In this document: positions 2,334 to 59,455 of the stretch, piece by piece
How positions within the stretch are numbered: position 1 is the stretch's first letter
Layout: every line of letters begins with the position of its first letter
Assembly (NCBI RefSeq): GCF_001889045.1
Contig: NZ_CP018155.1
Coordinates: 186,001 to 250,000 of the forward strand
Reading direction: 5' to 3'
Source: Tenacibaculum todarodis
GTDB taxonomy: Bacteria > Bacteroidota > Bacteroidia > Flavobacteriales > Flavobacteriaceae
DNA: 64,000 nt
Position numbers and translations under genes: made by a program
Notes under the pieces: model-generated
Database searches by the model: none
The model's input: the letters and a program-made list of their open reading frames with translations, nothing else
What the model was told of the DNA's origin: nothing

Positions 2334-5255
2334 ATGCAAAAAAGAATATTCCTTTTATTTTTATTCAACGTTTTCTTATTAAGTGCGCAAGCACAAAGTG
2401 TAGATCCGTTAAGAGCAACTGATGCAGCTGCGCAACAAATTTGGGTAGATAGTATTATAAATAACATGACTGTTGAAGAAAAAATTGGTCAACTATTTAT
2501 GGTACAAGCTTATTCTAATTTAGATGCTAAGCATGAAAAAACTATTACAAATATGATTGAGAAATATCATGTTGGTAATTTAATTTTTATGCAAGGAACG
2601 CCAGAAAAACAAGCAAAACTGAATAATAAATATCAAGAACTATCTAAAGTTCCGTTAATGATTGGTTTTGATGGAGAATGGGGTTTAGATATGCGTTTAA
2701 AAAACGTATATAAATTTCCTTGGAACATGACTTTAGGCGCAATTAGAGATAATAATCTGGTTGAAGAATTTGGTAAACGAATAGGAGAGCATTGTAAGCG
2801 ATTAGGAATTCACATGAATTTTGCGCCTGTTGTAGATGTGAATATAAATCCAGAAAACCCAATTATTGGTAATCGTTCTTTTGGAGAAAGCAAAGAGAAT
2901 GTAACCCAAAAAGCAATTGCCTTTACTCGTGGAATGCAACAAGCTGGTGTGCTTGCAAATGCAAAACACTTTCCTGGACATGGAGATACAGCGTCAGATT
3001 CTCATCATACTTTACCAGTTTTAAACTTTACAAAAGAACGTTTAGATTCAATAGAATTGTATCCATACAAAAGAATGTTTGATGCAGGTGTAGCAAGTGT
3101 TATGACAGCGCATTTAAGTATTCCTAGTTTAGAGCAAGATCCTGCTTTACCTACATCACTTTCTTATAACGTAACCACAAAGTTATTACAAGAAAAGTTA
3201 GGTTTTTTAGGGTTGGTTATAACCGACGGATTAAACATGAAAGGCGCTGCAAATTATTCTACTTCAGCAGAAATAGATTTAGCCGCAATACTTGCAGGAA
3301 ACGACATGTTGTTAATTCCGCAAGATGTTCCAGGTTCTGTAAAATTGATGAAAAATGCACTTAAAAACGGAATGCTAACCGAAGAAAGATTAGAGCATTC
3401 TGTTCGTAAAATATTAAGAGCAAAGTATTTAGTTGGTTTAAATAAGTATAAACCAGTTTCAGAAGACAATTTACAAGCTGATTTAAATGCTCCAAAAGAT
3501 GAGGTTTTACATAGAAAATTGATTAAAAATTCTATTACCATTCTAAAAAACACAAACGGAGATATTCCGGTTAGAAATTTAGAAAAACGTAAAATTGCTT
3601 ATGTTTCAATGGGAGATTCTAAAGGAACTCATTTTGTAAATATGTTGCAGAATTATGCAAAAGTTGATGTGGTTTCAGATAAAAACTTAGCAACTCTTCA
3701 ACAAAAATTAGAAAAATACAATTTAGTAATTATTGGTTTTCATAAATCTAATGACCATCCTTGGAAAGGATATAAATTCACAAACAAAGAACTAGTTTGG
3801 TTGCAAGAAATTGCACGAGAAAAAAATGTTATTTTAGATGTTTTTGCAAGTCCATACAGTTTATTACAAGTTAAATCATTTACTAATATTGAAGGTTTAT
3901 TGGTTTCTTATCAAAACAGTAAATTGGCACAAGAACTTTCTGCGCAAGCAATTTTTGGAGCTTTAGATGTAAACGGAAAATTACCGGTTTCAATAAAGAA
4001 TGAGTTTGGAGAAGGGCATGGTTTGTTAGCCTATAGTTTAAAAAGATTTGAATACTCTACGCCAGAAGATGTTGGTATGTCTTCTTTGGTTTTAGAAGGA
4101 ATAGATAAAAGAGTCGATACAATTTTAAAGCAAAAAATGGCTCCTGGAGTTCAGGTTTTGGTGGCTCGTCATGGAAAAGTTATTTACAATAAAAGTTTCG
4201 GATACCACACGCATAGTAAAAAGCTAAAAGTAAAAAATTCCGATGTGTATGATTTGGCTTCCCTAACAAAAATATTGGCTTCCCTACCTTTAATTATGAA
4301 AGCAGAAGAGGAGCAGGTTTTACCATTGTCGGCAAGTTTAAAAGATATATTACCTTCTTTTAAAAACTCAAATAAAGAAAAAGTAACTGTAAAAGAAATC
4401 TTGTCGCATTTTGGACGCTTAAAAGCATGGATTCCATTCTATAAAGGCACTCAAGATAGTGTAACGGGTAGAAATTTATCAAAATTTTATAGCAAGAAAA
4501 AATCAGATAAATATCAAATTAAGATAGCTCAGAATTTATATATGAATAAAAGCTACCAAGACAGTATTTATAAATATATAAAAGATGCAGATCAAAGAGA
4601 AAGCAAGCGTTATAAATATAGCGATTTAGGATATTATTTATTCAAGAAAGCATTAGAAGATACATATCATAAACCATTAAATACTTTGGTAGATGAAGAG
4701 TTTTATCAATCTTTAGGAGCAAATAGAACCTCTTATTTACCTTTAGAAAAATTTAGAAAATCAGAAATTATTCCAACAGAAAAAGACACTTATTATCGCA
4801 ATCAATTATTGCAAGGTTACGTGCATGATATGGGCGCAGCAATGCAAGGTGGAGTTGGCGGTCACGCGGGTTTATTTGCAAATGCTAATGATGTTGCCAA
4901 GATTATGCAAATGTACTTGCAAAAAGGCGAATATGGAGGCAGACAATACCTGTATCCTGAAACGGTAGAAAAGTTTAATAAGCGTTATTTTCAGGACAAA
5001 AAAGTTCGTAGAGGCTTAGGTTTCGATAAGCCGCAATTAAATCCAAAAGTTAAGGCAACTTGTGGTTGTGTTTCCGAAGAAAGTTTTGGTCATAGTGGTT
5101 TTACAGGAACTTATACTTGGGCAGATCCACAAAGCGGAATTGTCTATGTTTTCCTATCAAATCGAGTATATCCAAACATGGATAATCGAGGTTTGGTAAG
5201 AAGTAATATGCGAACCAAAATCCAACAAGTAATTCAAGACGCTATTATAAAATAG
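2334..5255 (+). CDS. GH3 beta-N-acetylhexosaminidase fused to a serine beta-lactamase-like domain
   Basis: Exported 973-residue fusion. The start at ATG 2334 gives a clean signal peptide ending SAQAQ; the upstream in-frame ATG at 2265 lies inside the preceding gene and would spoil it. The N-terminal half is a family 3 glycoside hydrolase of the NagZ type: KHFPGHGDT holds the catalytic Asp-His dyad and VITDGLNM the nucleophile Asp. A GH3 C-terminal-like alpha/beta domain follows. The last ~370 residues form a class C beta-lactamase / penicillin-binding-like domain with SLTK (SxxK), YSD (YxN position) and HSG (KTG position). This pairing is known from Bacteroidota and suggests coupled removal of GlcNAc and peptide-linked groups from muropeptides in the periplasm; the substrate is inferred. 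The third motif being HSG rather than KTG points to an esterase or amidase more than a penicillinase. Confidence 0.92.
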   Translation: MQKRIFLLFLFNVFLLSAQAQSVDPLRATDAAAQQIWVDSIINNMTVEEKIGQLFMVQAYSNLDAKHEKTITNMIEKYHVGNLIFMQGTPEKQAKLNNKYQELSKVPLMIGFDGEWGLDMRLKNVYKFPWNMTLGAIRDNNLVEEFGKRIGEHCKRLGIHMNFAPVVDVNINPENPIIGNRSFGESKENVTQKAIAFTRGMQQAGVLANAKHFPGHGDTASDSHHTLPVLNFTKERLDSIELYPYKRMFDAGVASVMTAHLSIPSLEQDPALPTSLSYNVTTKLLQEKLGFLGLVITDGLNMKGAANYSTSAEIDLAAILAGNDMLLIPQDVPGSVKLMKNALKNGMLTEERLEHSVRKILRAKYLVGLNKYKPVSEDNLQADLNAPKDEVLHRKLIKNSITILKNTNGDIPVRNLEKRKIAYVSMGDSKGTHFVNMLQNYAKVDVVSDKNLATLQQKLEKYNLVIIGFHKSNDHPWKGYKFTNKELVWLQEIAREKNVILDVFASPYSLLQVKSFTNIEGLLVSYQNSKLAQELSAQAIFGALDVNGKLPVSIKNEFGEGHGLLAYSLKRFEYSTPEDVGMSSLVLEGIDKRVDTILKQKMAPGVQVLVARHGKVIYNKSFGYHTHSKKLKVKNSDVYDLASLTKILASLPLIMKAEEEQVLPLSASLKDILPSFKNSNKEKVTVKEILSHFGRLKAWIPFYKGTQDSVTGRNLSKFYSKKKSDKYQIKIAQNLYMNKSYQDSIYKYIKDADQRESKRYKYSDLGYYLFKKALEDTYHKPLNTLVDEEFYQSLGANRTSYLPLEKFRKSEIIPTEKDTYYRNQLLQGYVHDMGAAMQGGVGGHAGLFANANDVAKIMQMYLQKGEYGGRQYLYPETVEKFNKRYFQDKKVRRGLGFDKPQLNPKVKATCGCVSEESFGHSGFTGTYTWADPQSGIVYVFLSNRVYPNMDNRGLVRSNMRTKIQQVIQDAIIK

Positions 5256-12919: not shown

Positions 12920-15310
12920 ATGGATTTTAAAAAACTAGTACCTTATTTTATAGCTGTTACAGTTTTTGTAATTGCTTCTTTAATTTATTTTAACCCAGTT
13001 TTAAGCGGAAAAAAAATTAAACAGAGCGACATTACACAGTTCTCTGGAATGGCAAAAGAAATAAAAGATTACAGGTTAAAGCACAATGATAAAGAACCTT
13101 ATTGGACAGGAAGTGCTTTTAGCGGAATGCCAGCATATCAGGTAAGTACTTACTTTCCTAATGATTTTATACGATCAATAGATAAACTATTACGCTTTTT
13201 ACCAAGACCAGCAGATTATGTTTTTCTATATTTCTTCGGATTTTTTCTACTATTAACAGCTTTAAAAGTTGAATGGAAATTGGCAATTCTAGGAGCATTG
13301 TCCTTTGGATTTTCAACTTATTTAATTATAATTTTTGGAGCTGGACATAATGCTAAGGCGCATGCAATAGCTTATATACCAGCTGTAATTGCAGGTGTTT
13401 TATATGTTTTTCAAAAAAGATATTTACTCGGATTTGTAATTGTTGGTTTAGCAATGGCGCTAGAAATTTATGCAAATCACCCACAAATGACCTATTATAT
13501 GGGGTTTTGTTTGTTGATTTTAGGTGTTGTGGAGTTTGTTGAAGCAATAAAGAAAAAAGCGATAAAAACTTTTGCCAAACAAGCTGCAATAATTGTTGCC
13601 GCAATGTGTTTAGGAATTAGCGTAAATGCAACCCGTTTGCTTTCTATGAAAGAATATGCAGATTATAGTACTCGTGGAAAATCCGAGTTAACAATAAACC
13701 CAGATGGAAGTAAAAAAGAAGCATCCAAAGGTTTAGATAAAGCTTATATTACTGAATACAGCTACGGAATTGCAGAAACATTTAATTTAATGATTCCTCG
13801 TTTTATGGGAGGAGGAACTATTGAAGAATTAGGAGAAAGTTCTGAGTTTTATCAAACATTAAAAGCAAAAGCAGGAACAAAAACAGCTAGAGATTATTCC
13901 GAACAAGTTTTTACGTATTGGGGAAATCAACCAATAGTAGAAGCGCCAGCTTATATTGGAGCTATAATTTTCTTCTTATTTTTTCTCGGAATTTTTCTAG
14001 TTCGCGGAAAATTAAAATACTGGTTAGTAGCAGCAACTATTTTTTCGATTCTATTAAGTTGGGGGAAGAATTTTGCTGGAATCACTAACTTTTTTATTGA
14101 TTATATCCCTCTTTATAACAAGTTTAGAGCGGTTTCATCCATACAAGTAATTGCAGAATTATGTGTTCCTTTATTAGGAGTTTTAGCACTTAGAAACTTT
14201 TTCTCATCAGAAATTTCTTCAGAAGAAAAGGGAAGTGCGCTTAAAAAAGCATTATATGTTGGAGGTGGAATTGCATTGTTTTTTATGCTCTTTGGGTCAA
14301 GTTTGTTTGCTTTTGAAGGTTTAAGAGATTCACAATATGCAGAATTACCAGAATTGATTGATGCTTTAATTTCTGATAGAAAATCAATGTTATTTAATGA
14401 CAGCTTACGTTCATTAGTTTTAATTGTTTTATCAGCAGGATTGCTATGGTTTTTCTTAAAAAACAAAATAAAGCAGTTGCCAGTAATATTGGTTTTGGGC
14501 GCTTTAATTTTATTTGATTTAGTTTCGGTTGATATAAATTATGTAAATAAAGACGATTTTACTGCAGCAAGAAAAGTTTTAAAACCATTTACAGCGTCAG
14601 AAGCAGACAAGCAGATTTTAGAAGATAAAACACATTATAGAGTTGCTAATTTTACAGTAAATCCATTAAACGACGGTAGAACATCGTATTTCCATCAATC
14701 AATTGGTGGTTATCATGCTGCAAAAATGGGACGTTATCAAGAGTTGTTTGATTATCAAATAGCCAAAAATAACATGGAAGTATTAAATATGTTAAATACT
14801 AAATACTTTATTGTTGGCGCAGATCAAGTGCAATTTAATCCAGATGTAAATGGAAATGCATGGTTTGTTCAGAATTTAAAAATTGTAAACTCTACTAATG
14901 AAGAAATGCAAGCGTTGGATAGTTTACAAACGAAAAACCAAGCTGTAATTAAAGGTGATTTGGTTGGGAAATCATTTTTTGAAAAAGATTCAACCGCAAC
15001 TATAAGCTTAATAAAATATGATGTTAATACCTTAACGTATGAATCGAAAGCAAGCCAAGAACAGTTTGCGGTTTTTTCAGAAATCTATTATAAAAATGGT
15101 TGGAATGCCTATGTTGATGGGAAATTAACGCCACATTATCAAGTTAATTATGTGCTTCGTGGAATGGTTGTTCCAGCAGGAAATCATACCATAGAATTTA
15201 AGTTTGAACCTACTGTTATTAAAACAGGAAATACCATTTCTTTAATTTCGTACGCGTTGTTATTATTAGTTCCAATTGGTTGGTTTTTCTTTGAAAAAAG
15301 AAAGCAATAA
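12920..15310 (+). CDS. YfhO family membrane glycosyltransferase-like protein
   Basis: 796 residues. About eleven to twelve hydrophobic helices (residues ~8-480) are followed by a soluble extracytoplasmic domain (~530-760) and one last helix before KKRKQ. The first loop contains SGMAKEIKDYRLKHNDKEPYWTGSAFSGMPAYQ, the acidic/aromatic loop region of YfhO/GT-C-like proteins. In Firmicutes YfhO helps glycosylate lipoteichoic acid; in Bacteroidota the acceptor is unknown but is probably an envelope glycan or lipid. It sits at the head of the polysaccharide cluster and overlaps the next gene by one base (TAATG). Confidence 0.85.
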   Translation: MDFKKLVPYFIAVTVFVIASLIYFNPVLSGKKIKQSDITQFSGMAKEIKDYRLKHNDKEPYWTGSAFSGMPAYQVSTYFPNDFIRSIDKLLRFLPRPADYVFLYFFGFFLLLTALKVEWKLAILGALSFGFSTYLIIIFGAGHNAKAHAIAYIPAVIAGVLYVFQKRYLLGFVIVGLAMALEIYANHPQMTYYMGFCLLILGVVEFVEAIKKKAIKTFAKQAAIIVAAMCLGISVNATRLLSMKEYADYSTRGKSELTINPDGSKKEASKGLDKAYITEYSYGIAETFNLMIPRFMGGGTIEELGESSEFYQTLKAKAGTKTARDYSEQVFTYWGNQPIVEAPAYIGAIIFFLFFLGIFLVRGKLKYWLVAATIFSILLSWGKNFAGITNFFIDYIPLYNKFRAVSSIQVIAELCVPLLGVLALRNFFSSEISSEEKGSALKKALYVGGGIALFFMLFGSSLFAFEGLRDSQYAELPELIDALISDRKSMLFNDSLRSLVLIVLSAGLLWFFLKNKIKQLPVILVLGALILFDLVSVDINYVNKDDFTAARKVLKPFTASEADKQILEDKTHYRVANFTVNPLNDGRTSYFHQSIGGYHAAKMGRYQELFDYQIAKNNMEVLNMLNTKYFIVGADQVQFNPDVNGNAWFVQNLKIVNSTNEEMQALDSLQTKNQAVIKGDLVGKSFFEKDSTATISLIKYDVNTLTYESKASQEQFAVFSEIYYKNGWNAYVDGKLTPHYQVNYVLRGMVVPAGNHTIEFKFEPTVIKTGNTISLISYALLLLVPIGWFFFEKRKQ

Positions 15311-30655: not shown

Positions 30656-31213
30656 ATGAGTAGAAAATATAAATTTCATAATAAATCTGCATTGTATTTT
30701 GTAAGTTTTGCTACCGTAAATTGGATGGAAGTTTTTACTAGACAAGTCTATTTTAATGTATTGGCAGAGAGTGTAGATTTCTGTAGATCAAAAAAAGGTA
30801 TGGAATTATATGCCTATTGTTTTATGCCAAGTCATGTCCATCTTTTATTTAGGTCTTCTAATGAACAACCTATGGAGTTATTAAGAGATTTTAAAAAACA
30901 CACTGCAAAAAAACTAATAGAAGCTATACAAAACAATCCTCAAGAAAGTAGAAAAGAATTATTGTTATGGTTGTTTGAAAGAGCTGGTAAAAAGAAAGGT
31001 AATGTTTCAAAATATCAATTTTGGCAACACAACAATCAACCAATAGAATTATGGAGTGAGAAAGTAATTAAACAAAAAATAGATTACATTCATAAAAATC
31101 CTGTAGCCCTTGGTTTTGTAACAAGCCCAATAGATTGGAAATATTCTAGTGCAAGAAATTTTCAAGATGACCATACCGTTTTACAAATTGACGAAACTGG
31201 TTTTTTAGCATAA
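30656..31213 (+). CDS. REP-associated tyrosine transposase (RAYT), intact copy
   Basis: 185 residues, IS200/Y1-type single-strand transposase family. HUH motif at H60 and H62 (SHVHLLF). The C-terminal signature runs FWQHNNQPIELWSEKVIKQKIDYIHKNPVALGFV and WKYSSARNF, typical of Bacteroidota RAYTs. The catalytic Tyr is not certain; Y120 just before FWQ, 58 residues after the HUH, is the best candidate. RAYTs are usually domesticated and act on palindromic REP sequences beside them; the element at 30522-30602 is the obvious partner. ATG at 30656 agrees with the start of the damaged copy. Confidence 0.92.
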   Translation: MSRKYKFHNKSALYFVSFATVNWMEVFTRQVYFNVLAESVDFCRSKKGMELYAYCFMPSHVHLLFRSSNEQPMELLRDFKKHTAKKLIEAIQNNPQESRKELLLWLFERAGKKKGNVSKYQFWQHNNQPIELWSEKVIKQKIDYIHKNPVALGFVTSPIDWKYSSARNFQDDHTVLQIDETGFLA

Positions 31214-31276
31214 AATTAATAGGTTACTACTCTCAAATATACTAGTATTAACTAAATGTTGATTATATAAGAGTAA

Positions 31277-31358
31277 GCGCGTTAGGGATTGAAGTGGCAT
31301 CCTTTTTGTTTTTTTTGCAAAAAGATATAACGGAAAGCCCGACCTTTAGGTAACGCCC
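31277..31358 (+). repeat. dispersed ~80-base intergenic repeat, copy B
   Basis: GCGTTAGGGATTGAAGTGGC, ATCC, a T run, GCAAAAAGATATAACGGAAA, GCCCGACCTTTAGGTAACGC. The best-preserved of three copies (others at 5300-5372 and 48777-48864). It lies between the convergent RAYT and E1 dehydrogenase genes. Its ends GCGTTA and TAACGC are inverted, so the whole unit has short terminal inverted repeats. Confidence 0.85.
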
Positions 31359-31479: not shown

Positions 31480-33933
31480 TTAATACAAACTTTTAAATTT
31501 ATTAGGGTTTACCTCATGCATCATTTCATATACTTTTTCAAAAATATCTTCTGCGGAAGGCTTGGAGAAATAATCTCCATCTGTACCATAAGCAGGTCTA
31601 TGCGCTTTGGCTGTTAATGTTTGTGGTTTGCTATCTAAATATTGATAACCATTTTGATTTTCTAAAATTTCTTGTAATAAATATGCTGATGCTCCACCAG
31701 GAACATCTTCGTCAATAACTAATAATCTGTTTGTTTTTGCTACAGATTTTACAGTATCATGATTAATATCAAAAGGTAATAAACTTTGCGCATCAATAAT
31801 TTCAATTTCAATACCAACTTGCGATAAATCTTTAGCTGTTTCTTGAACAATTCTTAATGTAGAACCGTAAGAAATTACTGTCATGTCACTTCCTTCTTTA
31901 AGAGTTTCAGTAACACCAATTGGAGTTTTATACCTACCAATATTTGTTGGCATTTTTTCTTTTAAACGATACCCATTTAAGCACTCAATTACTAAAGCAG
32001 GATCGTCTCCTTCTAATAATGTATTATAGAAACCAGCAGCTTGCGTCATGTTTCTTGGAACTAAAACGTGGATTCCGCGAAGGTTGTTAATTATTCCGCC
32101 CATTGGAGAACCAGAATGCCAAATACCTTCTAATCTATGTCCACGAGTTCTAATAATTAACGGCGCTTTTTGTTTTCCGAAAGTTCGGTATCGAAGCGTT
32201 GCTAAATCATCACTCATAATTTGAAGAGCATATAATAAGTAGTCTAAATATTGAATTTCTGCAATTGGGCGTAAACCACGCATTGCCATTCCTATTCCTT
32301 GACCTAAAATAGTTGCTTCTCTAATTCCGGTATCTGAAACTCTAAGTTCTCCAAATTTTTCTTGTAAACCTTCTAAACCTTGATTTACATCTCCAATATA
32401 ACCTGCATCTTCTCCAAAAATTAATACTTCTGGGTGTTTAGATAAAATTTCGTTGAAGTTGTCTCTCATAATTACACGAGCGTCAACTAGATTTTCTTCT
32501 GCTCCATAGGTTGGCTTTACAGGAGTTACATTGGTTGTTTTATATGATGTTTCACTGATTAAATGTGAAGAGTATTTAATTTCGGCGTTTTTGGTTGCAT
32601 TTTTAATAAAATTCTGTAATTCAATTTTCTCAGCAAAATGTTCTTCTCTTAAGTAACGTAGTACTTTACGACACGCAACCAAAACATCTTTTCTTACAGG
32701 TTCTATTATTGCTTCAAGGTCGTTTTTGTATTTTGTTATAAAAGTACCGTTACTACTCTTTTTAGCAATTCTTTCAAATAAGTTTCCAGCAGAAATTAAT
32801 TCTACTTTAATTTCATTTAAATAAGAGTTCCAAGCGTTTCTTTTTGCTGCAGAAACTTCTTTCTTAGCGCTTTTCTCTATATTGATTAATTCTTCTTCAG
32901 AATCTACAAATTTTAAACTTCCTCCGTTTCCATCACCAAGTTCAAAATTTAAAATCCAATTACGCATTTGTGTAATACAGTCAAAATCTTTTTCCCATTT
33001 TAAACGTTCTGGAGTTTTGTATCTTTCATGTGAGCCAGAAGTAGAGTGCCCTTGAGGTTGTGTTAATTCTTTAACATGAATTAAAACAGGTGTATGATGT
33101 GTTCTTGCAATTTCTGAAGCTCTGTTATATACATCAATAAGTTGTACATAATCCCATCCATTAACTACAAAGATTTCGTAACCGTTAGTGTCTTTTTCTT
33201 TTTGAAAACCTTTTAATATTTCTGAAATACTTTCTTTGGTTGTTTGGTGTTTAGCGTGTACAGAAATTCCGTACTCATCATCCCAAACATTCATTACCAT
33301 TGGTACTTGTAAAACTCCTGCGGCATTTATTGTTTCAAAAAATAAACCTTCAGATGTGCTTGCGTTACCGATTGTTCCCCAAGCAACTTCGTTTCCTTTA
33401 TCAGAAAAATCAGTAAAATTTTCTAATCCTTTTACGTTTCTATAAATTTTTGAAGCTTGTGCTAAACCTAATAAACGAGGCATTTGACCTGCAGTTGGAG
33501 AAATATCTGATGAAGAATTTTTTTGCTGAGTTAAGTTTTTCCAATCGCCATTTTCATCTAGAGAATGTGTAGCGAAATGACCGCCCATTTGCCTACCTGC
33601 AGACATTGGTTCAATCTTAATATCGGCATGCGCATATAAACCAGCGAAAAATTGTTGTGGATTTAACTCACCAATTGCCATCATAAAAGTTTGATCTCTA
33701 TAATAACCAGATCTAAAATCTCCGTTTTTAAAAGACTTGGCCATAGCTAATTGAGGTACTTCTTTACCGTCTCCAAAAATACCAAACTTAGCTTTACCAG
33801 TTAAAACCTCTCTACGTCCTAATAAACTACATTCTCTACTAAGTCTTGCGATTTTGTAATCTTTTAAGACTTCGTTTTTAAAATCGTTAAAAGATATTTG
33901 TTCAGCGGTAAGGTTTGCGTGTTTTGTAGCCAT
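31480..33933 (-). CDS. 2-oxo acid dehydrogenase E1, fused alpha and beta subunits
   Basis: 817 residues. ThDP-dependent decarboxylase of a branched-chain 2-oxoacid (or pyruvate) dehydrogenase complex, with alpha (residues ~20-400) and beta (~480-817) chains in one polypeptide. The alpha part has GYYRDQTFMMAIG and the metal/ThDP region IGNASTSEG..VWDDEYGIS. Relative to the canonical GDG...N motif the metal-ligand positions read N190 and D219, i.e. Asp and Asn appear exchanged. The beta part has FGEDAGYIGDV, DTGIREATILGQGIGMA and RTRGHRLEGIWHSGSPMGG. This fused form is standard in Bacteroidota. E2/E3 are not nearby. Solitary gene, convergent to the RAYT. Confidence 0.9.
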   Translation of the reverse strand: MATKHANLTAEQISFNDFKNEVLKDYKIARLSRECSLLGRREVLTGKAKFGIFGDGKEVPQLAMAKSFKNGDFRSGYYRDQTFMMAIGELNPQQFFAGLYAHADIKIEPMSAGRQMGGHFATHSLDENGDWKNLTQQKNSSSDISPTAGQMPRLLGLAQASKIYRNVKGLENFTDFSDKGNEVAWGTIGNASTSEGLFFETINAAGVLQVPMVMNVWDDEYGISVHAKHQTTKESISEILKGFQKEKDTNGYEIFVVNGWDYVQLIDVYNRASEIARTHHTPVLIHVKELTQPQGHSTSGSHERYKTPERLKWEKDFDCITQMRNWILNFELGDGNGGSLKFVDSEEELINIEKSAKKEVSAAKRNAWNSYLNEIKVELISAGNLFERIAKKSSNGTFITKYKNDLEAIIEPVRKDVLVACRKVLRYLREEHFAEKIELQNFIKNATKNAEIKYSSHLISETSYKTTNVTPVKPTYGAEENLVDARVIMRDNFNEILSKHPEVLIFGEDAGYIGDVNQGLEGLQEKFGELRVSDTGIREATILGQGIGMAMRGLRPIAEIQYLDYLLYALQIMSDDLATLRYRTFGKQKAPLIIRTRGHRLEGIWHSGSPMGGIINNLRGIHVLVPRNMTQAAGFYNTLLEGDDPALVIECLNGYRLKEKMPTNIGRYKTPIGVTETLKEGSDMTVISYGSTLRIVQETAKDLSQVGIEIEIIDAQSLLPFDINHDTVKSVAKTNRLLVIDEDVPGGASAYLLQEILENQNGYQYLDSKPQTLTAKAHRPAYGTDGDYFSKPSAEDIFEKVYEMMHEVNPNKFKSLY

Positions 33934-55058: not shown

Positions 55059-55155
55059 TTTTTTGAATTGTTTTTTTGAATTCGAACAAAGATACATTAA
55101 AAATTTGCATACCTTATTTTGATTGCTGATTTTTGATATACCAAATAAGCGTAAA

Positions 55156-56661
55156 ATGAACCATCATATAATAAGTAGTAAACAATTAGATTTAGAGACA
55201 ATTCACGATTTATTGCATACTGATAAAAAATTGCAATTATCCGAAGATTCAATTGCTAAAGTTATAAAGTGTCGCGCTTATTTAGATGCTAAAATGCAAG
55301 AAAATTCTAAACCTATTTATGGAATTAATACAGGTTTTGGAGCCTTGTATAATGTGAAAATTGATGGTAAAGACTTACAGAAACTACAAGAAAACTTAGT
55401 AATGAGTCATGCTTGTGGGGCAGGAGATGAGGTTCCACAAGAAATTGTAAAACTGATGTTGTTATTAAAAATACAATCGTTAAGTTATGGTCATTCTGGT
55501 GTGCAATTAGAAATAATATATCGGTTAGTAGATTTTTATAATAATAATATTTTCCCTGTAGTCTATACACAAGGTTCTTTAGGAGCTTCTGGAGATTTAT
55601 CTCCATTGGCACATTTAGCATTGCCATTAATAGGTCTAGGTGAAGTGTATTTTGAAGGCGAAAAAATTAGCGGAAAAGAAATATTAGATAAATTTAATTG
55701 GCAATCTATTCAATTTAAATCAAAGGAAGGTTTAGCGTTGTTAAATGGAACGCAATTTATGTCTGCATACGGAGTTTCAAACCTTTTAAAAGCGTATAAA
55801 TTATCTTATTTAGCAGATACAATTGGTACATTATCTTTAGAAGCCTTTGATGGAAGAATTGAGCCTTTTAATGAGTTAATTCATTTAGTGCGTCCTCATA
55901 ACGGACAATTAAAAACGGCTAAAAGAATCTCAGAATTTTTAGAAGAAAGCACATTAATAAATCAAGAGAAAAAACACGTTCAAGATCCCTATTCATTTCG
56001 TTGTATGCCACAAGTTCACGGAGCAACAAAAGACACTTTGGCGTTTGTAAAAAAGACGTTTATTACGGAGATTAATTCGGTAACCGATAACCCAAATGTA
56101 TTTGTAGAGGAAGATTTGTTAATTTCTGGAGGAAATTTCCATGGGCAACCTTTAGCATTAGCGTTGGATTTTTTAGCGATTGCAATGGCCGAATTGGCAA
56201 ATATTTCCGAACGAAGAACCTATCAATTAGTTTCAGGACACAGACATTTACCACCATTTTTAGTTTCCAATCCAGGTTTAAATTCTGGTTTTATGATTCC
56301 ACAGTACACAGCAGCAAGTATTGTAAGTCAAAATAAACAATATGCAACACCAGCAAGTGTAGATTCTATAGAGTCTAGTAACGGACAAGAAGACCATGTT
56401 TCTATGGGAGCAAATGCGGCAACCAAAGCTAAAAAGGTAGTTGATAATGTACAAACTGTTTTGGCAATTGAATTGTTTACAGCTTCGCAAGGATTAAGCT
56501 TTGGTAACGGAAAAACGTCTCCATTTTTAGAATCTTTAGTTGGTTTATTTAGAAATGAAGTTAGTATTGTTGAAGAAGATCGTGTTATGCATCACGATAT
56601 TAAAAAGGCTTCACAATTTATAGATGGTTTTACTATTGAAGTAACTGAATTGTTTGGGTAG
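55156..56661 (+). CDS. hutH: histidine ammonia-lyase family enzyme
   Basis: 501 residues from ATG 55156. Aromatic amino acid lyase with the MIO cofactor from Ala-Ser-Gly 144-146 (GSLGASGDLSPLAHL). Y56 in YGINTGFG is the catalytic Tyr region. The selectivity pair is S84-H85 (LVMSHACG), the histidine-type pair, not the HL of tyrosine lyases, so urocanate is the expected product. QDPYSFRCMPQVHGA and SVTDNPNVF are also canonical. No hutU, hutI or hutG adjoins it, so it stands apart from a histidine-use operon. Followed directly by the cassette at 56675. Confidence 0.88.
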   Translation: MNHHIISSKQLDLETIHDLLHTDKKLQLSEDSIAKVIKCRAYLDAKMQENSKPIYGINTGFGALYNVKIDGKDLQKLQENLVMSHACGAGDEVPQEIVKLMLLLKIQSLSYGHSGVQLEIIYRLVDFYNNNIFPVVYTQGSLGASGDLSPLAHLALPLIGLGEVYFEGEKISGKEILDKFNWQSIQFKSKEGLALLNGTQFMSAYGVSNLLKAYKLSYLADTIGTLSLEAFDGRIEPFNELIHLVRPHNGQLKTAKRISEFLEESTLINQEKKHVQDPYSFRCMPQVHGATKDTLAFVKKTFITEINSVTDNPNVFVEEDLLISGGNFHGQPLALALDFLAIAMAELANISERRTYQLVSGHRHLPPFLVSNPGLNSGFMIPQYTAASIVSQNKQYATPASVDSIESSNGQEDHVSMGANAATKAKKVVDNVQTVLAIELFTASQGLSFGNGKTSPFLESLVGLFRNEVSIVEEDRVMHHDIKKASQFIDGFTIEVTELFG

Positions 56662-56674
56662 AAAAAAAATAATG

Positions 56675-56812
56675 TTCGCTAACGTTGTTGTATAAGGAAA
56701 GTTGCGGTTTTGTCAGCGAGGAATTTCCGAAGGAAATTCAGAAGTTGATAAAAATGCAACTGCCTTTGTTTAAGCACTAATGTAGCAATTTTTTATACAC
56801 GTTGTTAGCACC
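56675..56812. repeat. left structured end of cassette (attC-like)
   Basis: Outer boxes GCTAAC (56678-56683) and GTTAGC (56804-56809), inner boxes TGTATAA and TTATACA with unequal spacers (5 and 4 bases). The middle includes GTTGC/GCAAC pairing and a perfect AATTTCC-GAA-GGAAATT hairpin (56722-56738). Total folding length is about 132 bases. Confidence 0.75.
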
Positions 56813-57290
56813 AGTTTTTATTCCACTTTTCAAATCGGTTGTCTATTATTTTCGCTATTTTATGATAATTTTCCCAATTATTTCGTACTCTAAAAATATC
56901 TGGGTCATCTTCCGAACTCAATGTTTCTTCGTAATCGTTTACATATTCTCCATTATCGAATTCAAAATAATCCATTGCAAAATTAAATCCAATTTTATTC
57001 AGAAGTTCTCCGATTAAAACTCCGTCCCAATTCATATACAATTCGGATGGCGAGATTTGTTCAGATTTAGTTTTTTCAATTTCATCATTACTTTCCTCAA
57101 GTAAAAATTCACTATATAAATCGTTTTTAATAACCCAAGCAAAGAATAAACCTGTATGAACATAAGCTTGTTCTTCATCAAGTTCAGCTTCGTTTATTGA
57201 GTCAAAATGATATTTCGCTTTGTCAAAAACAAAACTTTCATCAACTTCTTTTAATTCCTTCTTTTTTTTATTGAATAGTTTTCCGAACAT
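56805..57290 (-). CDS. DUF7832-like small cytoplasmic protein (cassette cargo)
   Basis: 161 residues, acidic, no signal. FDKAKYHFDSINEAELDEEQAYVHTGLFFAWVIKNDLYSEFLLEE, then YMNWDGVLIGELLNKIGFNFAMDYFEFDNGEYVNDYEETL and NNWENYHKIAKIIDNRFEKW match what I recall of the DUF7832 family (HTG..W and DGvl..lLn..G..Fa..YF blocks). Such proteins often occur as isolated accessory genes; an immunity-like role is speculation. The last codons TGG TGC TAA are supplied by the cassette end, and the start is 13 bases from the right end. Confidence 0.7.
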   Translation of the reverse strand: MFGKLFNKKKKELKEVDESFVFDKAKYHFDSINEAELDEEQAYVHTGLFFAWVIKNDLYSEFLLEESNDEIEKTKSEQISPSELYMNWDGVLIGELLNKIGFNFAMDYFEFDNGEYVNDYEETLSSEDDPDIFRVRNNWENYHKIAKIIDNRFEKWNKNWC

Positions 57291-57302
57291 TTTTTTTAAA
57301 TT

Positions 57303-57361
57303 GGTGCTAACTTTAACGCTGATATGCGTCGTTTTAATGACTTATATCAGTCGTTAGCGAA
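57303..57361. repeat. right structured end of cassette (attC-like)
   Basis: Outer boxes GCTAAC (57306-57311) and GTTAGC (57353-57358), inner boxes CTGATAT and ATATCAG, spacers of 7 and 2 bases, and a short central loop. The reverse complement of its flanks equals those of the left end. Confidence 0.78.
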
Positions 57362-57394
57362 TTTACCTAAAAAGAAATTTAGAAACAAACCAAA

Positions 57395-59455
57395 TTATTC
57401 AGCAACACTGTCAATTAATATAGTAAGCATATCAATTGCAGCTTGTGCAATTTTGGTTCCAGGGCCAAAAACACCAACGGCACCAGCGTCAAATAAAAAT
57501 TGATAATCTTGAGCAGGAATAACGCCACCAACAATTACCATAATATCTTCTCGATCGTATTTTTTAAGTTCTGCAATCACTTGCGGCACTAAAGTTTTAT
57601 GTCCAGCTGCTAAAGATGATATACCAAGAATATGAACATCGTTTTCTATAGCTTGTTTTGTAGCTTCTTGTGGTGTTTGAAAAAGTGGACCAATATCTAC
57701 GTCAAAACCTAAGTCGGCATAACCTGTTGCAACCACTTTTGCGCCTCTATCATGACCATCTTGCCCAAGTTTGGCAATCATAATTCGAGGTCTTCTACCT
57801 TCTAATTCAGCAAATTTGTCAGCTAAATCAGTTGCTTTTTTAAACAATTTATCGTCTTTAATTTCTTTACTATACACGCCAGAAATGGTTTTATGTACTG
57901 CTTTATGTCTGTCAAAAACAGTTTCTAAAGCATCAGAAATTTCACCTAAAGTGGCTCTATTTCTTGCTGCTTTTACAGCCAAATCTAATAAATTTCCGTT
58001 ACTTGATTTTGCGCATTCCGTTAAATCTGCCAAAGATTTTGCTACTTCTGTAGCATTTCTATCAGCTTTTAAGGTATTTAAACGATCAATTTGAGATTGA
58101 CGAACGGCTTCGTTATCAACTTCTAAAATATGTAAAGGTTCTTCTTCTTTTAATTGATATTTATTTACACCTACAATTACATCCTTTCCACTGTCTATTT
58201 TTGCTTGTTTTATTGCTGCGGCTTCTTCAATACGCATTTTCGGAATTCCTTTTTCAATAGCTTTTGTCATTCCGCCAAGTTCTTCCACTTCTTGAATTAA
58301 TTCCCACGCTTTGTTGGTAATTTCTTCCGTTAGTTTTTCAACGTGATAACTTCCTGCCCAAGGATCTACCGTTTTGGTAATATGAGTTTCTTCTTGTAAA
58401 TATATTTGTGTGTTTCTTGCAATTCTAGCAGAAAAATCGGTTGGTAACGCAATAGCTTCGTCCAACGCATTTGTGTGCAAAGATTGTGTTCCGCCAAAAG
58501 CTGCTGCCATAGCTTCAATAGTAGTTCTAGCAACATTGTTAAACGGATCTTGTTCTGTTAAAGACCAACCACTTGTTTGGCAATGTGTACGTAAAGCTAA
58601 TGATTTTGGGTTCTTCGGGTTGAATTTTTGAACAATTTTTGCCCATAACATTCTACCTGCTCGTAATTTTGCAATTTCTTTAAAATGATTCATTCCAATT
58701 GCCCAGAAAAACGAAAGGCGAGGAGCAAAGGTGTCAATATCCATTCCGGCTTCAATACCTTTTCTAATATATTCTAATCCGTCTGCTAACGTATACGCTA
58801 ATTCAATTTCTGGCGTTGCACCCGCTTCTTGCATGTGATAACCAGAAATAGAAATCGAATTAAATTTCGGCATATTTTCAGAAGTAAACTTAAAAATATC
58901 CGCAATAATTTTCATCGATGGAGTTGGTGGATAAATGTACGTATTACGCACCATAAACTCTTTTAAAATATCATTTTGAATGGTTCCTGCTAATAATTCT
59001 GGAGCAACTCCTTGTTCTTCCGCAGCAACAATATAAAAGGCTAAAATTGGTAAAACGGCGCCGTTCATTGTCATTGAAACCGACATTTTATCTAACGGAA
59101 TTTGGTCAAATAAAACCTTCATGTCTTCCACAGAATCAATGGCAACTCCTGCTTTTCCAACATCACCTTGCACACGCTCATGATCAGAATCGTAACCTCT
59201 GTGCGTAGCTAAATCAAACGCAACAGAAAGTCCTTTTTGACCAGCAGCTAAATTTCTTCGATAAAAAGCGTTGCTTTCTTCCGCAGTAGAAAAACCTGCA
59301 TATTGCCTAATTGTCCAAGCTCTACGAACGTACATTGTTGAGTAGGGTCCGCGTAAATTAGGCGCTAATCCAGCAACAAAATCTTCGTGTTTAAACGAAG
59401 AGTTTTCTTGTTTATTTTTGTCTAAACTGATATTTGAAACGTCTTTTCTACTCAT
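57395..59455 (-). CDS. mutB: methylmalonyl-CoA mutase, large (catalytic) subunit
   Basis: 686 residues. Adenosylcobalamin-dependent interconversion of succinyl-CoA and methylmalonyl-CoA. TIM-barrel part with [21 protein letters not shown] and [46 protein letters not shown], all substrate and radical-control segments. C-terminal cobalamin-binding domain with DGHDRG (H568, axial ligand) and GGVIP. Complete, normal length. Overlaps mutA by eight bases in the udk-ftsB-mutA-mutB order. Gene names mutA/mutB differ between authors. Confidence 0.95.

Follow-up and report, generated by a model that had tools for sequence, protein, structure and literature searches.

A DUF7832 gene cassette probably integrated into an attC-like hairpin between hutH and mutB of Tenacibaculum todarodis

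Introduction

The chromosome of Tenacibaculum todarodis (NZ_CP018155.1, here C1; a single-contig genome of 3.02 Mb) carries a short element with one open reading frame (ORF) between the convergent genes hutH (ending at 56661) and mutB (ending at 57395). The stretch analysed, called the window, comprises 64,000 nucleotides (nt; C1:186001-250000), and coordinates without a prefix are window positions. We describe the element and the related sites found in this chromosome, in the genus and beyond, and conclude that it is very probably an integron-type cassette that encodes a DUF7832 protein and entered, through site-specific recombination, an attC-like hairpin already resident between the two genes.

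Results

The hutH-mutB locus

The features of the locus are as follows.

55123..56661, plus strand: flanking ORF hutH (histidine ammonia-lyase), named after an earlier note on this DNA
56675..56682, minus strand: right half of the resident site, now displaced; it reads TTAGCGAA on this strand and is complementary at 8/8 positions to the resident R'' box (57361-57353)
56675..56812, minus strand: hybrid attC site of 138 nt, with R'' box GGTGCTAAC, spacer, GTGTATAA...TTATAC, spacer and R' box GTTAGCGAA
56683..57310, minus strand: probable integrated gene cassette of 628 nt, running from TTAGCACC (57310) through the ORF and the attC to ...CAACG (56683)
56805..57290, minus strand: cassette ORF of 161 amino acids, DUF7832 (PF25191, E 3.4e-34), its TAA stop within the attC R'' box
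57303..57361, minus strand: resident attC-like docking site, a hybrid of 59 nt, with R'' box TTCGCTAAC, CTGATAT...ATATCAG stem, spacer and cassette R' box GTTAGCACC
57358..57389, minus strand: promoter-like TTTG (57389-57386), 20 nt and TAAATTCG (57365-57358), apparently pointing into the cassette
57395..59455, minus strand: flanking ORF mutB (methylmalonyl-CoA mutase), named after the same note

The earlier note, made from the letters of the window, had described a single-gene cassette bounded by two attC-like palindromes in inverted orientation, and had taken it either for a diverged integron cassette without integrase or for another class of single-strand-folded non-autonomous element. Direct reading confirmed the geometry: the outer ends, TTCGCTAACG and CGTTAGCGAA, are inverted copies, the left end occupies 56675-56812 (138 nt) and the right end 57303-57361 (59 nt), both inner edges read GGTGCTAAC toward the ORF, and the ORF terminates as TGC TAA C inside the left end. 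Both ends also form more stable folds than the majority of 200 dinucleotide-shuffled sequences, with z-scores of -3.3 on the plus strand (0 shuffles as good) and -2.2 on the minus strand (7 as good) for the 138-nt end and of -2.5 (4 as good) and -2.8 (2 as good), respectively, for the 59-nt end. The integron-type ends and the single-gene cassette are thus retained; the pair of inverted attC sites is not. The two ends are best read as hybrids left by a single recombination in which a cassette circle (attC GGTGCTAAC...GTTAGCACC) joined a resident attC-like palindrome (TTCGCTAAC...GTTAGCGAA).

The cassette limits are fixed by the 9-nt complementarity of GTTAGCACC and GGTGCTAAC together with the split resident palindrome. 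The R' box of the window attC, GTTAGCGAA, is part of the resident site, and the other half of the resident hairpin lies beyond the cassette, at 56675-56682, which explains the inverted outer ends. As predicted for a single recombination at G|TTAGC, two palindromes were split: one now forms the inverted outer ends, the other the equal inner ends. When the halves are rejoined in silico, a 59-nt hairpin of -12.8 kcal/mol results (z -5.0 versus simple shuffles). By its letters, then, the 59-nt end is most of a resident attC-like hairpin and not a second cassette attC.

A BLAST search with a 700-nt region of the locus against its own genome returned 16 matches including itself, mostly to the 138-nt or the 59-nt part at 76-100% identity, so that both the attC and the docking site have matches elsewhere in the genome; some part of the region was matched in 23 of the 39 genomes searched, its own included. 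An Rfam search of 56500-57500 gave nothing up to E 1. The DUF7832 ORF had 71 homologues at E<=1e-3, and a function was named for none of those listed. A match to mutB was present in 56 of the 58 genomes searched in the genus. In the 29 relatives whose sequence downstream of mutB (up to 1.5 kb) was read, hutH was not found, and an orthologous empty hutH-mutB site did not turn up. By eye, a 59-type sequence with its flank lies downstream of mutB in one relative (G044, L124), as does a more diverged 59-type sequence in another (G013, L131).

A cassette array beside a tyrosine recombinase

A profile search of fetched regions located 27 attC sites in tandem on one strand of C1:1887403-1922275, plus others at solitary places. 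The array adjoins a gene for an integrase-like tyrosine recombinase (C1:1885762-1886829) on the same chromosome as the window, which disposes of the 'without integrase' part of the earlier description. An alignment of 26 sequences gave the attC layout as R'' box (..AAC), 3-nt spacer, GTATAT/ATATAC and TTGC/GCAA stems, 6-nt spacer and R' box (GTT..), that is, an imperfect palindrome R''-L''...L'-R' with AAC/GTT boxes and unequal spacers. The window attC aligns with 25 other sites of the genome, and its GCTAAC/GTTAGC boxes, previously regarded as a diverged exception, are ordinary within this local family. The stems covary (A2 score 0.277 versus 0.106 shuffled, and also above slid controls). A covariance model trained on 26 attC sites of this genome (R1) scored the window attC, itself one of the training sequences, at 98.5 bits, and found matches in 57/58 genomes of the genus (E<=0.01) and in 39/198 genomes of the phylum, its own included (E<=1e-4); the genome searches scored a limited number of candidates each, and per-genome counts are lower bounds. 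In 9 of 80 named loci, related recombinases had sites of this kind nearby.

Complementarity of a unit's own two ends is the textbook relation of integron cassettes. We compared the first nine bases of each unit (GTTxxxxxx) with the nine at its own R'' box, scoring the six bases outside GTT/AAC. For 24 array units the mean score of a start against its own R'' was 5.17/6; comparisons inside a single site averaged 2.54, and other pairings 2.29 (permutation p 1e-5). Eighteen of the 24 units scored 6/6, one scored 5/6 and five scored low (1-3); these five all follow a 190-nt unit that lacks an ORF, and the start behind that unit matches in 5/5. The window unit obeys the same rule at 9/9 positions (GTTAGCACC/GGTGCTAAC). 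Complementary ends recurred in six of the nine attC-bearing loci of other Bacteroidota (contigs of Seonamhaeicola, Flavobacteriaceae S0862, Winogradskyella, Algibacter, Lutibacter and a Bacteroidetes metagenome-assembled genome), where 25/29 units scored 6/6 and the remaining four 1, 2, 2 and 5 (shuffled 2.43). Units that travel as circles, each with one complete attC, should show such a rule.

The ORF-less 190-nt unit, GATGGGATG...GCGGCG, was seen between array cassettes in L012 near 6965, 8543, 10937 and 15472 and in L013 near 1411; further copies lie in L018 near 8556 (incomplete) and, alone in a docking site of the kind described below, at C1:488612 (L270). It resembles a gene-less cassette because it contains the complement of its own start, CATCCCATC. 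The array also contains an insertion element in three copies, which do not differ over 1235 nt or more (L012:1654-2888, L012:17929-19163 and L013:2277 onwards), behind C1:1901652, 1917927 and 1922275. All three entered the attC at the same point, after CATACACG, with CACGTT restored behind them. The 330-amino-acid ORF looks by eye like an IS110-family transposase, reminiscent of the attC-specific IS110/IS1111 elements. Unit starts behind the copies fit the end rule in 2/2 testable cases of the three.

The top Foldseek match of the recombinase model was the Vibrio integron integrase 2a3v (E 2.1e-16). Residues 208-246 of 2a3v, the IntI-specific domain, have no counterpart in this genome's recombinase. 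TIGR02249 was matched in two stretches by 10/10 recombinases scanned, at 191-217 bits versus a cut-off of 265, and the stretch shown ends at profile position 176-197 or starts at 239-240. At the other end of the protein, about 70 N-terminal residues of the recombinases scanned at full length (that at C1:1885762-1886829 and relatives) had no Pfam match; in the predicted model this part forms a small unit of strands and a helix, and the first 72 residues are barely covered in the VIA-align list. No attI could be assigned between recombinase and first attC in this genome or for three recombinases of two relatives. The 59-nt site was considered as the attI of the array and was not seen in the regions read beside recombinases.

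Dispersed docking sites, empty and occupied

A second model, R2, trained on ten 59-nt sites of this genome, scored the window docking site (one of the ten) at 71.5 bits and gave 18 matches in its own genome, the training sites included, and 139 in 30/58 genomes of the genus. No match fell inside the array, C1:1887403-1922275. In the 25 of the 80 loci from other genera that were searched there was no convincing match (best E 0.26). The hairpins are 59-62 nt long and have a conserved loop and upstream flank of their own. Two intact copies in this genome, one reading TTCGCTAAC-GTT-GAATATCC-loop-GGATATTC-TTTTACA-GTTAGCGAA, have fold z-scores of -4.8 and -6.0. Among the 82 docking sites fetched, 97% of the inner-stem cells are paired and compensatory changes occur, and the covariation score is 0.259 versus 0.082 shuffled in an alignment (A5) that was fitted to the model; the R boxes pair in 49.5% of cells, because many sites are split.

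Of the 139 sites, the 82 fetched yielded 74 in which a script found the R'' box. Sites were called occupied when the resident right half was present behind a downstream attC, which gave 16 empty, 35 occupied and 23 unclear. In this genome the 18 sites divide into 4 empty (C1:1405614, 1423354, 1579865 and 2875808), 7 occupied and 7 unclear; C1:488612, one of the unclear ones, contains nothing but the 190-nt unit without an ORF, with TTAGCGAA behind it. All attC matches near the 82 sites (46/46) were on the docking site's strand, a count in which strand was free and direction preselected by fetching downstream flanks. Ends of both kinds thus recur beyond this locus with other ORFs between them, and empty sites exist, two points on which the earlier note had staked its mobile element.

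These data bear on the possibility that the locus is the remnant of a degraded two-cassette array, a cluster of attC sites lacking integron-integrases (CALIN), in which the 59-nt end would be the attC left by an upstream cassette after the loss of its gene. Both ends are indeed attC-like, and single attC sites can be true ones according to the authors of IntegronFinder in excerpts of their paper (PMC9024848). The 59-62-nt class, however, is unmatched in the genome's own array and is set apart by a loop and an upstream flank that are conserved within it, and it occurs at 18 places in this genome and in 30/58 genomes of the genus, in part empty, which makes such a remnant very unlikely. Dispersed intergenic hairpins with conserved loops also look, in general, like repetitive extragenic palindromes and bacterial interspersed mosaic elements (REP/BIME), which a REP-associated (Y1) transposase would spread independently of integrons. 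The occupied sites, though, hold cassettes with matching ends in one orientation, and attC arrays adjoin tyrosine recombinases; as an account of the locus we find this scarcely credible, while the empty hairpins themselves may have a REP/BIME-type origin.

Two observations concern individual sites. A docked cassette at C1:426135 (L261, L046) carries two small ORFs that by eye resemble a RelE/ParE-type toxin-antitoxin pair. In another genus, a 7-kb record annotated as a plasmid of Pontimicrobium sp. SW4 (NZ_CP157200.1) has an intact empty docking site, TTCGTTTAAC...GTTAAACGAA, at L340:2032-2089.

Matching of the split halves

We compared the halves at the 43 parsed docking sites with a same-strand attC. 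The outer ends, formed by the resident R'' and by the sequence following the attC, matched at 8/8 positions in 28/43 sites. Their mean was 7.16, compared with 4.71 for randomly chosen positions and with 6.66 after ends had been permuted across sites (p 5e-4), the latter value being raised by the one sequence that the majority of sites have in common. Among the 15 sites with a variant sequence, 9 match their own half best, 4 prefer the common sequence and 2 neither. The inner ends, cassette start and R'' of the next attC, matched at 8/8 in 24/43 sites and at >=7/8 in 31/43, with a mean of 7.02 versus 5.22 shuffled (p 5e-4). A non-autonomous transposon that has TTCGCTAACG as its terminal inverted repeats and depends on a conventional transposase would suit the inverted outer ends and the one accessory gene, but is extremely improbable, as the outer ends vary largely with the resident half (for example TTAAACGA in 3/3 sites with attC, and 9/15 variant sites overall) and are also found complete without an insert instead of as fixed terminal repeats, the inner ends follow the cassette, the array is devoid of 59-nt matches, and identical fixed termini with target duplications at many loci were not seen, no systematic search for target duplications having been made.

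A promoter-like flank

Upstream of the docking sites there is often a promoter-like TTTG-N20-TAnnTTCG oriented into the cassette. With sites aligned on the R'' box, TTG stands at exactly -27 in 51/74 and within -29 to -24 in 59/74, compared with 14% of random places, and is followed by a conserved TA-AC-TTCG that overlaps the R'' box. The Bacteroidetes -33/-7 promoter consensus is TTTG/TAnnTTTG in excerpts of PMC6847099 and PMC9723704, and the window flank TAAATTCG has 7/8 letters of the -7 box as quoted in the former. The flank differs from the consensus by C for T in TTCG, a base that is also fixed by the R'' box. Two flank types could be distinguished by eye, sharing the positions of TTG and TAAC-TTCG. 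We rejected the flank as an independent repeat: 6 of the 9 genome places with at most one mismatch to TTTRGTTTGTTTCTAAA are at docking sites, so the flank mostly belongs to the site. If this putative promoter is functional, the R'' box would contain the transcription start, and transcripts would extend into the cassette.

Discussion

Our preferred reading is that of a cassette integrated into a dispersed docking site. It builds on features legible in the sequence, namely the limits of the cassette, the division of resident palindromes into halves, sites with and without an insert, an array beside a recombinase and the missing IntI stretch of that enzyme. In the proposed mechanism a cassette would leave as a circle, whose attC reunites the 5' R' and 3' R'' boxes, and the circle would then recombine at G|TTAGC with another folded site; the array recombinase would be the enzyme and folded single strands its substrate. 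Besides the array, the targets would be the dispersed 59-62-nt hairpins, and since most of those examined have promoter-like sequence toward the insertion point, a docked cassette would be transcribed. Because the cassettes and attC sites are those of an integron and the recombinase is without the IntI domain, we term the system integron-like. More broadly, Bacteroidota may possess an integron lineage of their own with recombinases without the IntI-specific domain, and one genus may use dispersed promoter-bearing docking sites as expression slots, so that cassettes could be expressed at many positions outside the array; this wider proposal is tentative, and we consider it somewhat short of probable.

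Surveys, in the excerpts available, recognise integron integrases by the IntI-specific domain, a criterion by which arrays like this one would not qualify. Bacteroidota are listed in excerpts of reviews among integron-bearing phyla, and the quoted parts of the IntegronFinder 2.0 paper (PMC9024848) give one complete integron in Bacteroidetes proper, in Salinibacter ruber, with earlier ones in Chlorobi and Ignavibacteriae. Within the open-access literature, preprints and subscription papers being outside this scope, we recognised no description of an integrase without the stretch or of a flavobacterial cassette array. Should the recombinases prove active, integron recombination would not require a domain so far considered necessary for it, and the mobile-gene reservoir of a large phylum could be read. 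The dispersed docking sites, empty or occupied, provide a natural, countable record of where cassettes inserted.

Related sites occur in phages. For Polaribacter phage P12002L, attC clusters without integrase were described, and P12002L_attC2 showed attC x attI1 activity (PMC9892861, in excerpt). R1 matched this phage (L342) at four places at E<1e-3 (14498-14630, 31112-31318, 32218-32285 and 32792-32929), some near methyltransferase genes, a set that may or may not include P12002L_attC2. Winogradskyella phage Peternella_1 has an attC of this family at L341:3996-4131 (E 1.9e-16) and a second at 4359-4494 (E 1.5e-5); the unit between them has matching ends (GTTACCAAC/GTTGGTAAC) and an ORF that reads against the cassette direction.

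Among known systems, the sedentary chromosomal integrons, such as the Vibrio superintegron, resemble the present one: cassettes with attC sites stand in tandem and are complementary at their own two ends, a tyrosine recombinase lies next to them, a unit without an ORF occurs, and one cassette looks toxin-antitoxin-like by eye. In contrast to them, the recombinase here is without the IntI-specific stretch and has about 70 extra N-terminal residues, the host is a flavobacterium, and several cassettes lie outside the array at a dispersed class of site. Cassettes placed in the chromosome away from the array recall attG sites, secondary genomic integron targets that diverge in sequence and structure from classical att sites according to excerpts of PMC12901181 (Loot et al. 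2024 is also cited in PMC11641012); unlike attG as characterised there, the targets here are attC-like hairpins whose loop is conserved and whose flank resembles a promoter. Finally, an attC without adjacent integrase is what IntegronFinder terms CALIN or single attC, but here the cassette is flanked by the two preserved halves of a second, resident site, and the chromosome has an integrase-like gene elsewhere.
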